64,000 nucleotides of DNA from Ignavibacteria bacterium (GTDB lineage Bacteria; Bacteroidota; Ignavibacteria; Ch128b). Below, one piece after another: positions 58,255 to 64,000 of this stretch. The translations under genes were made by a program, and so were the position numbers. Under the pieces are notes generated by a model, which had not been told where the DNA came from, made no database searches, and worked only from the letters and a program-made list of their open reading frames with translations. The stretch spans positions 310,001 through 374,000 of the forward strand of contig JABLYA010000001.1 in assembly GCA_013177855.1 (NCBI GenBank), written 5' to 3'. Numbering within the stretch: position 1 is the stretch's first letter; each line of letters opens with the position of its first letter.

Positions 58255-58680
58255 CTATGCTTTTTTAAACTCAGGATATTCATTCCATACTTTACCATGG
58301 AAAATTCTTCCATTTGCTTTTTTATTTCGTTTGACTTCATCAGCTCCCCAGGTGCCCCATTGCTTGAAGAAGAATGCGACATTCTGCTTTTTGCATTGAT
58401 AGAATATTTCTTCTACCCATTCTTTTTTCATTGGTCTTGCATTTTTACCTGATTCACCACCAACAATTGCCCAATGAATTTCTGTTAAATCCAAATTACC
58501 GACTGCACCAATCAATGGCTCAAATGAAATAAACCTGATTCGAGCATTTATTTTTCTTAGTGTATCAATTCTTTTTTTAAACGCAGCACTTTCAACACTA
58601 ACACCAAGCCAGACATTTGGTGGGACATCTTTATTTGAAAAATATTTTTCTATTTGATTGCGGTTAAAACCGATTTTTTT
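58255..58680 (-). pseudogene. DUF5131 (phage Gp37/Gp68-like) protein, C-terminal remnant
   Basis: From 58680 down the frame is open: GFNRNQIEKYFSNKDVPPNV WLGVSVESAAFKKRIDTLR, ARIRFISFEPLIGAVGNLDL, WAIVGGESGKNARPMKKEW and FFFKQWGTWGADEVKRNKKA. This is the second half of the DUF5131 family (radical-SAM-like phage and genomic-island proteins). The N-terminal half, which should hold the cysteine cluster, is missing: an in-frame TAG stands at 58681-58683, exactly where a hairpin-repeat module begins. A start at 58515 would give only 86 residues. I treat it as a truncated gene. Confidence 0.75.
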
Positions 58681-60779: not shown

Positions 60780-61060
60780 TAATATTCTAAAATTTTTTCC
60801 AACATTTAATCTGTCTCACTCTATTATTTCAATTTCTTCAGGAGTAAAATTAATATTTAGTTGAAAATTTTCTATTTGCCACGAGCTTTAGCTCGAGGCA
60901 TAATTGAATATCAAATATTTCGAGCTCTAGCCAAAATATTTTCCCTCTGAGATCGATTAAAACCGATTTTTTCAATTTTATTTTTTATCTCTAGCCACGA
61001 GTTGAAACTCGTGGCTGGCTATTTTTTTAATTATTTCTCTCGGCTATTAGTTATTTCAAA
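60780..61060. repeat. Repeat module with GCCACGAG hairpins, upstream copy
   Basis: GCCACGAGCTTTAGCTCGAG-GC at about 60879-60899 and AGCCACGAGTTGAAACTCGT-GGCT at 60993-61016, with CGATTAAAACCGATTTTTT between (60953-60971). The order and spacing equal those of the module at 58661-59215. No gene in the 336 bases between the flanking coding regions. Confidence 0.8.
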
Positions 61061-61101: not shown

Positions 61102-64000
61102 TCAATCCCCTCCTTCTATTATTTCTATTTCTTCCGGAGTTAATTCGTAGAGCTGGTAAACTAAATGGTCTATTTCTTTTTCCCATGCACTTGTATCTGA
61201 TTGCGGATTTTCTTTTTTCGCAGAAATTATTTTATCTACCAGTGTTTCTATTTTCTCTACAATGGACTGGTTGTTTGAAGTGATGGTTGGAAATGGAAGA
61301 TCTTCAATAAATGCTTTTTTATACCTATAACCCTCTTCACCTAATCCTCCTCCAGCATACCATTTCTTAAAAAAGAATGTAATTGGATTAGAATTTAGCA
61401 ATCCACATATGTATTTTAAGTTTTTACCTGTCATTAAAAATGATGTTGCTTCAACATAAAAATTGTCAATGTCAAAATAAAATTGAGGGTTTCTAACAAT
61501 TTCAGAATAAATCACCTTCTCCTTCTCAAACTCGGGGTAGTAGGCGATTTGGTCTTGTGTTTCAAACCATTTGTTGCCAGTTTTTTTGCGTGCATTAAAG
61601 CCTAAATGTGGATATTTCTTACCAGATTGTTCGAGCTGTCGGATATCGAAATTATCCAGAAAGTATTTCTTAAGAGCTGGAAACTTCTCGATATTTAAAT
61701 GTAATGCTGGAAAAGTTCCAATCACCCATAAACCTGCCCATTCATAATAATATCTTTTAATATCTCGCCCACGAAGGATTGGTTTTATTATAGCTTCGGT
61801 TCGTTTCCTCTCTTCTTCGTCCTTACAATTTTTAAGTATTTCATTTCGCTTTTCTGTTGTGATTATAAAAGCTTCATTTAAACCTGTTAATATTCCACGA
61901 TAAATTTTCACATTCCAATATTTCAGCGGCTTACCAATATTTTCAATCTTTTCTTTAAGTTTTTGTTCAGCACTGTTACCAATAAACCAAGCATTGTAAT
62001 TTAATCTAGAAATATATACACCTTTTTCGTTCAACGCACTTGAAATATTATTGCGGTCGTTTTTATCTAAGGTTAATGCTTTAAGATTATTACGATTTTT
62101 TGCTTTCTGAATAAGTAGAATGCTTGTATCTACAGTTGCATTTTCAAATACGCCAGGTCCAAGATCAATTAGTATGAGAGGATTAAATTTTGAAAAATAA
62201 TCTCTTAACTTTTTACCATAACCTGCCCTCATCCATTTATTTGATGTAATATAACAGAGATACCCATTTATTTTAAGCAGGTTCATTCCTTTTTCATAAA
62301 ATAGACAATAAATATCGCCAGTCCGGTCAAATGTTTTATAATCCTGATCTTTATAAAGGTCGGCATATTTTAAATTGCTTTTTTCACTTAAAGATTTTTG
62401 CAATTGAATATATGGTGGATTTCCAATCACAATATCAAAACCATCCCTCACACCAAACATCCATTCCGGGTCAAACCATTCTGCGTGAGTATTCTGATCA
62501 AATGGATCCCAGTTTGTAATTTTTTCTGCAACATCACTCGAAAACCCATTCTTCTTTAATTCATATTTTAATTTTTCTCTTAATTCTTTTTCTTTTCTTT
62601 GTAAATCTAATTTCTCTTTTCTGCTGTTTGTGTAAAATATTTCTTCTCTAATATTAAATAACTGCTTTTCAAGTACTTCAACTTCGGGAGAAATTAACTT
62701 TAATTGTTCAGATTGTTCAAATTGTTCAATCTTGGTTAAAGTATTTTCTGCATTAAATTGTTTAGGTCGTTTTAATTCAATTAAAGTATTTGCTGCGACA
62801 AATTTAGTTTCGAGATTTGGCAGAGCTCGAATATCACGATTTGGTTTTGTATCATCGATTTCCTGTTCAACAAGAAGCGAAATAAAAAATCTCAATTTGC
62901 TTATTTGAATTGCTATTTCCTGTATATCAACACCGTAAATACAATTCTCAATCAATCCTAATTTTCTTATGTAATCAATGGACTTATTTTGTAAAGATTG
63001 TTCAGTTTCACTGCGAATTTCAGCCGGCACTCTGTTTAATACTCTTTGTTTCCAAATTTTATTTTCCGGATCAAGTTTATGCAGAGCAAGCACAAGTTTA
63101 TGCAGAACTCCCATTGGGAAAGCACCGCTACCACAAGCAGGATCCAGAATTTTTATCTTTTCAATTGCATCAATGAGTTTCAAAGTAGTTTCTTCATCGA
63201 AAGGATTTTCGTCGGTCGAATAGTCAAAAAGTTTTCTCAAAAGTGTATCTATATCCTCTCGACTTCTTACTCCATCCTCTCGTAGCTCTTCGTTTACTAT
63301 TTTCCACGAGCAGCATATATCCGGCAATTTTACATTTGCCTTAATCGGATTTGACCTGATATAATTTTTGATAGCCAAAAATGAATTTTCATTTCTAACA
63401 ATATGGTCATAAGATTCGTGCATCCACACGCTTTCTTTTCTATTGAGTACTTTATTTATTCTATGCGCCGAATAAGATTTAATTGAATGCAAAATATCTG
63501 AAAGAGTATAATCATTTCTGGGTCTTATGAGTAAATGAACATGATTTGGCATAATCACCCAATCGTCTAAATCATATCTCTCACCATTAAAATGAAGTAA
63601 AGTATCAGCAACAATTCTTGCAATTTTTTCATCTTTCAAAATACAAGAACCGTAACCATTATTTAACCATTCTTCAACTCGTTCTGAAAATAGTTTGTAA
63701 TATTCCTGTTTCTCCTCTTCTGTTAATTCAGTTTTATCCTTTTTATGAACTTTTAACCATTGTTCACGCTCTTTTTCTAATTGTTCAATTTTTTCTTTCG
63801 GTAATGCATCAGCTAATCTGAATGTAACAAAATACCAGACACTTCCCTGATGCATATGTGGTAATTTGCCTCGCTTACCATAGAATAGATGAACTTCTTT
63901 ATCAGGATTATAAAATGTAGTTGAACCCTCCTGGGTTCTACTAATGTTATTAATATCCAATGTAGTTGAACCCTCCTGGGTTCTGCTAAAGTTATTAATA
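61102..64000 (-). CDS. REP-associated transposase fused in frame to type IIG (Eco57I-like) methyltransferase, 5'-partial
   Basis: The frame is open to the window edge; a TTG at 63960 is only a possible start. Numbering from it, residues 20-215 are a REP-associated tyrosine transposase: LFYGKRGKLPHMHQGSVWYF, MPNHVHLLIRP (HUH at 140-142), HSIKSYSAHRIN with the candidate nucleophile Tyr163, and AIKNYIRSNPIKANVKLPD. From about 225 to 952 runs the methylase and target-recognition half of an Eco57I-type enzyme: ILDPACGSGAFPMGVLHKL (motif I, 273-281), GVDIQEIAIQISKLRFFISL, DIVIGNPPYIQLQ (motif IV, 514-517) and a recognition domain ending QLYELTPEEIEIIEGGD. The nuclease domain that such enzymes carry at the N terminus is not in view. 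REP palindromes in frame precede the transposase. Either a true fusion or a clean in-frame insertion. Confidence 0.8.
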   Translation of the reverse strand, partial: INNFSRTQEGSTTLDINNISRTQEGSTTFYNPDKEVHLFYGKRGKLPHMHQGSVWYFVTFRLADALPKEKIEQLEKEREQWLKVHKKDKTELTEEEKQEYYKLFSERVEEWLNNGYGSCILKDEKIARIVADTLLHFNGERYDLDDWVIMPNHVHLLIRPRNDYTLSDILHSIKSYSAHRINKVLNRKESVWMHESYDHIVRNENSFLAIKNYIRSNPIKANVKLPDICCSWKIVNEELREDGVRSREDIDTLLRKLFDYSTDENPFDEETTLKLIDAIEKIKILDPACGSGAFPMGVLHKLVLALHKLDPENKIWKQRVLNRVPAEIRSETEQSLQNKSIDYIRKLGLIENCIYGVDIQEIAIQISKLRFFISLLVEQEIDDTKPNRDIRALPNLETKFVAANTLIELKRPKQFNAENTLTKIEQFEQSEQLKLISPEVEVLEKQLFNIREEIFYTNSRKEKLDLQRKEKELREKLKYELKKNGFSSDVAEKITNWDPFDQNTHAEWFDPEWMFGVRDGFDIVIGNPPYIQLQKSLSEKSNLKYADLYKDQDYKTFDRTGDIYCLFYEKGMNLLKINGYLCYITSNKWMRAGYGKKLRDYFSKFNPLILIDLGPGVFENATVDTSILLIQKAKNRNNLKALTLDKNDRNNISSALNEKGVYISRLNYNAWFIGNSAEQKLKEKIENIGKPLKYWNVKIYRGILTGLNEAFIITTEKRNEILKNCKDEEERKRTEAIIKPILRGRDIKRYYYEWAGLWVIGTFPALHLNIEKFPALKKYFLDNFDIRQLEQSGKKYPHLGFNARKKTGNKWFETQDQIAYYPEFEKEKVIYSEIVRNPQFYFDIDNFYVEATSFLMTGKNLKYICGLLNSNPITFFFKKWYAGGGLGEEGYRYKKAFIEDLPFPTITSNNQSIVEKIETLVDKIISAKKENPQSDTSAWEKEIDHLVYQLYELTPEEIEIIEGGD
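63923..63983. repeat. Two in-frame REP palindromes, 45-base tandem unit
   Basis: GAACCCTCCTGGGTTC at 63923-63938 and again at 63968-63983, exactly 45 bases apart, with almost the same flanks (AATGTAGTT before, ATTAATA after). Read on the minus strand in the transposase frame they give SRTQEGSTT twice with LDINNI between. They are probably the REP targets of the adjacent transposase. Confidence 0.75.

Follow-up and report, generated by a model that had tools for sequence, protein, structure and literature searches.

A stretch of 64,000 nucleotides from an Ignavibacteria bacterium (assembly GCA_013177855.1, contig JABLYA010000001.1; G000:C1:310001-374000), hereafter the window, contains a REP-associated tyrosine transposase (RAYT) and its repetitive extragenic palindromes (REPs) lying within the reading frame of a type IIG restriction-modification gene. 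In our reading, to which we assign a probability of about 0.78, the window exemplifies a RAYT/REP mobile element maintained in frame, and without splicing, as a domain of the proteins that host it. The usual description of RAYTs is of transposase genes that stand alone, with their hairpins outside genes. In a broader formulation, which we hold to be fairly probable, a lineage of HUH transposases lives inside proteins: a stop-free element with a length that is a multiple of three would invade housekeeping and defence genes, would be expressed by the host, hard to delete and unspliced, and a transposase domain would be built into working enzymes, valyl-tRNA synthetase, PriA and CarB among them.

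A RAYT and its REPs within a type IIG gene

The minus-strand frame from 61102 to 63999 has no stop up to the window edge, as an initial sequence-only reading of the window had noted, and beyond the edge it runs stop-free to an ATG at C1:375676 (window coordinate 65676), giving a gene of 1524 codons of which the window holds the C-terminal 63%. Along the window part Pfam profiles detect Y1_Tnp followed by Eco57I, N6_Mtase and TaqI_C, which bears out the in-frame union, recognized in that reading, of an HUH transposase domain (HVH) with DPACGSGAF and NPPY methylase motifs. The host has the gamma-type methylase motifs (with Eco57I) and the TaqI-like specificity domain of type IIG enzymes. A look beyond position 64000 for an N-terminal domain, which had been recommended, recovered the N-terminal half as well, with residues 3-465 being 81% identical to uninterrupted IIG proteins. 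Upstream of the gene lies its usual partner, a PLD-SNF2 helicase gene, and relatives of this helicase adjoin most of the related IIG genes that we examined.

The counterpart of this type IIG gene in another genome of the class (G120) has 1189 codons and lacks residues 475-807 of the window protein plus a few more, about 335 codons altogether, the flanks being 81% identical before the insert and 86% identical after it; the IIG gene of G085 is likewise free of the insert. The insert occupies a variable linker that follows the N-terminal half (ending YYTPREIVDYMVNESLIAYL; SLIAYL) and leads to the helix ahead of methyltransferase motif I. Because the window protein retains the N-terminal ~465 residues, at 81% identity to the uninterrupted relative, nothing was replaced; as judged by these alignments, the RAYT and REPs are inserted within a type IIG gene and have not displaced its nuclease-side half. 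The two origins proposed at the outset thus fare differently, with the relatives in G120 and G085 upholding a clean insertion into a restriction-modification gene and the retained N-terminal region contradicting the replacement of its nuclease domain. The expected recurrence of the fusion was also found, in the form of the same architecture at the same site in other genomes, and there is therefore no sign of the junction artefact, just as there is none of the stop codon, that would have undone it. A contig of 2.65 Mb spans the locus.

The inserted domain passes the cut-off of Pfam Y1_Tnp, and its score with NCBIfam NF047646 is below the curated value for that family (72.6 against 80 bits). It has both hallmarks of a RAYT active site, namely the HUH motif and a single tyrosine, Tyr772, at the place of Tyr115 of TnpA-REP (PDB 4er8). 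Tyr163, the catalytic candidate initially favoured, falls near NDYTLSDIL and gives way to Tyr772. An AlphaFold model of residues 560-1195 resembles, in one chain, the CamA and TaqI methylases and the RAYT 4er8, and is used in support only, with a mean pLDDT of 60 and low confidence in the REP linkers.

From the host start, the insert consists of five REPs with a GTAATC-tagged stem-loop (33-36-base units), four with a GTAGTT-tagged stem-loop in the opposite orientation (45-base units) and the RAYT, so that nine hairpins with GTAG-type tags stand beside the transposase. All unit lengths are multiples of three and all units are translated. The 45-base units that had been read as SRTQEGSTT repeats are real, two of the four in the gene lying in the window. 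A search of 3.66 Mb with the pattern GTARTYGAAYCCTCCTGGRTTC, allowing at most three mismatches, gave eight matches in the gene and two weaker ones elsewhere in the genome, both intergenic, and none with the backward control. Among the eight distinct REP sequences, which are not independent since all come from one gene, three of the six stem pairs change on both sides, a covariation equalled in one of 500 shuffles.

Table 1. Features of the interrupted type IIG gene in window coordinates, with residue numbers of the full 1524-codon frame
Feature	Position	Strand	Basis or remark
C-terminal 965 codons (with stop) of the 1524-codon type IIG gene plus RAYT insert	61102..64000	-	frame continues outside the window to the ATG at 65676
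Host sequence after the insert, residues 806-1524 (methyltransferase, specificity domain)	61105..63261	-	86% identity to G120; Eco57I, N6_Mtase, TaqI_C
TaqI-like C-terminal specificity domain, residues 1298-1441	61354..61785	-	Pfam TaqI_C
Methyltransferase motif IV NPPY, residues 1086-1089	62410..62421	-	sequence
Methyltransferase motif I DPACGSGAF, residues 845-853	63118..63144	-	sequence
In-window part of the insert absent from G120, residues about 466-807	63256..64000	-	whole insert reaches ~64281, outside the window
RAYT (Y1_Tnp / REP-associated tyrosine transposase), residues 591-790	63307..63906	-	Pfam Y1_Tnp 40.6 bits; NCBIfam REP_Tyr_transpos 72.6 bits; PDB 4er8 by sequence and fold
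Candidate catalytic tyrosine Tyr772 (NYIRSNP)	63361..63363	-	aligns with Tyr115 of TnpA-REP 4er8
HUH motif HVH, residues 712-714	63535..63543	-	invariant in eight lodged RAYTs
REP hairpin GTAGTTGAACCCTCCTGGGTTC, 45-base unit	63917..63938	+	translated in frame on the opposite strand, giving SRTQEGSTT
Second REP hairpin of the 45-base unit	63962..63983	+	sequence, pattern search
Two more REPs of 45-base units and five oppositely oriented GTAAT-type REPs	64007-64253		outside the window

Recurrence in unrelated host genes

RAYTs that lie in frame within another gene are here called lodged. When one genome per species (84,980 species) was scanned, 46 of the 80 nearest RAYT loci fell in open frames at least 430 codons long, a proportion biased toward lodged copies because the seed alignment (A1) was itself built from lodged RAYTs. 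Across 391 genomes of the class, the best intact-frame matches to the window RAYT all fall within open frames of 800 to 1552 codons, and the weaker RAYT matches are almost all free genes of about 150-340 codons. Ten pattern matches were obtained in viral contigs, and no relative was among them.

The hosts, identified from the flanks by Pfam or similarity, are diverse. Nucleases and methylases are represented by type IIG, HsdR, MmeI and Eco57I-type methylase genes, and other enzymes acting on DNA or RNA by PriA, XseA (the exonuclease VII large subunit), CCA/poly(A) polymerase and the PLD-SNF2 helicase. Metabolic and other hosts comprise valyl-tRNA synthetase, CarB (the carbamoyl-phosphate synthase large subunit), MetH (methionine synthase), MqnA, Sua5, FabA-like proteins, dehydrogenases (ADH-GFO/IDH), NUDIX and radical SAM proteins. 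The call for L105 depends on flank similarity to L147 only, those for L098 and L164 on BLAST only, and the flanks of L154 gave no host identity by Pfam or similarity. Pfam assigns L121 to MqnA, although flank clustering had placed it with CarB on account of translated repeats common to both. Two genomes carry several lodged copies in different genes: G398 has them in XseA, PriA and a further 719-aa frame, and G399 in PriA and further 735- and 470-aa frames.

Some hosts appear to have no uninterrupted second copy. The only locus above the valyl-tRNA synthetase (valS) cut-off in the L115 draft genome is the RAYT-bearing frame, which reaches 905.6 bits when joined across a 228-codon break between profile positions 205 and 208; the frame of L126 is broken at the same place. 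CarB frames are broken near profile position 475-485 in five genomes, and three (G394, G397 and G393) have no CarB copy over the cut-off besides the RAYT-bearing one. If these drafts are complete at the valyl-tRNA synthetase and CarB loci, the host enzymes must function with the insert in place.

The arrangement of REPs around lodged RAYTs carries a mark of the host frame. Direct REP copies flanking the RAYT are spaced by a multiple of three in 26 of 29 lodged cases as against 6 of 26 free ones (Fisher p 4.9e-7), with the qualification that, owing to common ancestry, these cases are not fully independent. Such spacing is expected if the inserted unit extends from one REP copy to another and only in-frame insertions survive, and the attention that the initial reading drew to the divisibility of 45 by three has therefore proved pertinent well beyond the window. 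When RAYTs lodged in the same host gene are compared, third codon positions are far more diverged than first and second positions, which indicates that the RAYT protein is under selection. In the RAYT tree lodged and free copies are intermixed and host labels are scattered, with the starred branches requiring at least four changes for IIG and three for HsdR; on this sequence-based phylogeny, the tree does not follow host identity.

Several other loci have related arrangements. L106 (NZ_MUGT01000032.1), from the cultured type strain Flavobacterium branchiophilum NBRC 15030, is a 1457-codon IIG gene with a RAYT at the same site. In L130:3259-7119, from Nitrospirota, a RAYT lies in frame near the C-terminus of the PLD-SNF2 helicase, the kind of gene that partners the IIG enzyme. 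RAYTs of other, more distant clades are in frame in RecG (L087:2983-6162, G275) and in two DUF1156-like methylases (L086, G087; L042, G030); these hosts were recognized by eye, the places of insertion differ, and each has translated palindromic repeats.

Proposed persistence of the element and competing explanations

The element consists of a full RAYT reading frame with adjoining REP hairpins, stop-free in the host frame and with a length divisible by three. With no stop and such a length, the host protein would still be made when the element lands in a tolerant linker, and the RAYT would then be an inserted domain held on flexible REP-encoded linkers. Most likely, RAYT and REPs are copied into genes as single-stranded DNA, through cutting by the RAYT at REPs, or by recombination between REPs. 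The copies that survive would be those in host linkers able to accommodate a domain, with the host gene supplying expression of the RAYT. We infer that the element is selfish, that the host and RAYT domains are both active and that the protein is unprocessed.

The sequence-only reading had offered a different purpose, namely a HUH-nickase/methylase hybrid, in which the restriction-modification enzyme recruited the RAYT for joint function. The intact catalytic residues of the RAYT, the share of restriction and other DNA enzymes among recognized hosts (more than half) and a second helicase-IIG operon in the same genome with two free RAYTs directly after it are all in keeping with recruitment. 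However, the closest IIG relatives (G120 and G085) have no RAYT, the same clade sits in genes for valyl-tRNA synthetase, CarB, MetH, menaquinone synthesis (MqnA) and FabA-like proteins, and the RAYT tree and the host labels disagree. A selfish insert fits the first two of these observations better than a designed hybrid, and we consider recruitment improbable. A more serious contender, though still a doubtful one, is that an internal start yields the RAYT as a separate protein, with the host frame reading through it by chance: three of the four 45-base units (all but the last) have AGGAGG and, 11 bases further on, an in-frame TTG, and the first ATG in the insert encodes Met608, already inside the domain. 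Chance sits poorly, however, with stop-free read-through kept in dozens of host genes and with a REP spacing that preserves the host frame. Separate production of the RAYT is also compatible with its persistence as an in-frame domain, and might possibly take place in addition.

Removal of the insert by splicing, either of the protein as an intein or of the RNA as an intron or IStron, would account for tolerance within essential enzymes. Nevertheless, Pfam finds no intein (Hint) domain in the whole protein, no Rfam intron or other RNA family reaches its gathering score in any of ten lodged loci, L006 among them, and the RAYT frame is continuous with that of the host, a continuity that RNA splicing does not need; we regard splicing as extremely improbable. 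Almost as remote is a decaying relic or an assembly artefact. The near absence of the REP family from the rest of the genome would suit it, but the frame has no stops or frameshifts, the catalytic residues are intact, codon positions show the pattern of selection, and the same site is filled in other genomes, to which the long contig covering the locus may be added.

Persistence as an in-frame, unspliced domain, which we prefer to these alternatives, has several points weighing against it. Movement, expression and the protein itself are inferred here from sequence alone. The window insert has REPs in both orientations, yet on the upstream side of the RAYT only, and many other lodged RAYTs have REPs on both sides. 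No direct or inverted repeat of at least 12 bases joins the two flanks of the insert, and the near confinement of the REP family to this gene, with its two weak extragenic copies, suggests that the element has not been recently active here. DNA-acting enzymes are over-represented among the hosts, an excess that pure neutrality of the insert would not call for. To these are added the many long frames that come from draft metagenome assemblies, as well as the seed bias and the shared ancestry qualifying the counts given above.

Relation to known systems and neighbouring features

Our search of the open-licence literature turned up intragenic REPs, Rickettsia palindromic elements and ShiLan, but no report in which the RAYT itself forms an in-frame part of host proteins. 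With RAYT/TnpA-REP and REPtrons (Nunvar 2010, PMC2817692; PDB 4er8) the window element shares the HUH motif, the catalytic tyrosine and REP hairpins with GTAG-type tags beside the gene; it departs from them in having its REPs translated and its RAYT embedded as a domain within another protein. GTAG and CGTC REPs are known in frame within coding genes, often those for DNA repair and tRNA synthetases, and are thought to be tolerated in loops (Di Nocera 2013, PMC3733652); there, however, the hairpins (about 20 to 82 residues) were reported in genes on their own, without the gene for the transposase. Rickettsia palindromic elements (Ogata 2000, 2002), as related in a later paper (PMC10969869), are likewise selfish palindromic DNA in frame in unrelated protein genes and translated along with the host, but are described there as about 150 bp long and encoding no transposase, whereas the window insert holds a full RAYT; RPE-4 and RPE-6 have the CGTC tag (PMC3733652). 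The ShiLan domain of phage methylases (Arsenault 2025, PMC11855218) is also an unspliced, stop-free, nuclease-encoding insertion in a DNA methylase gene and acts as a homing element, but its HNH endonuclease is out of frame with the host, unlike the HUH enzyme here, which is in frame and occurs in many unrelated hosts. Inteins with homing endonucleases are comparable as selfish nucleases in frame in conserved or essential proteins, but they splice themselves out, and no splicing domain was found in the window protein.

If correct, our reading would add a third solution, beside the splicing of inteins and introns, to living in a gene without breaking it, and would make testable the tolerance of a folded insert by an essential enzyme, the origin of new multidomain proteins and the mobility of RAYTs. 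Automated surveys miss lodged RAYTs: in one published survey of the family, proteins longer than expected were set aside as fusions or errors of annotation (PMC6006769).

The host protein matches the type IIG enzymes of PADLOC (PDLC03596, PDLC03601) over the N-terminal, methylase and specificity parts and in its pairing with a PLD-SNF2 helicase gene, and differs from them in being broken by the RAYT ahead of motif I. A second PLD-SNF2 helicase and type IIG operon, uninterrupted, lies outside the window at G000:C1:280.4-288.7 kb (L174:3387-11708). The end of this operon has a 55-base overlap with a tandem pair of free RAYT-like genes from another family; in-frame repeats (HRVCPGNSDQRVNPDNSD) occur in the first member of the pair. 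Both genes are distant from the lodged RAYT, and the genome has no further RAYT of its clade. Within the window, a small minus-strand frame at 58255-58515 resembles the C-terminal part of the PADLOC candidates PDC-M30B and PDC-M41B and is possibly a truncated gene. Just downstream of the IIG gene, at 60885-61015, the intergenic sequence has hairpins of a different type (GCCACGAG...CTCGTGGC), which may represent a second REP family.
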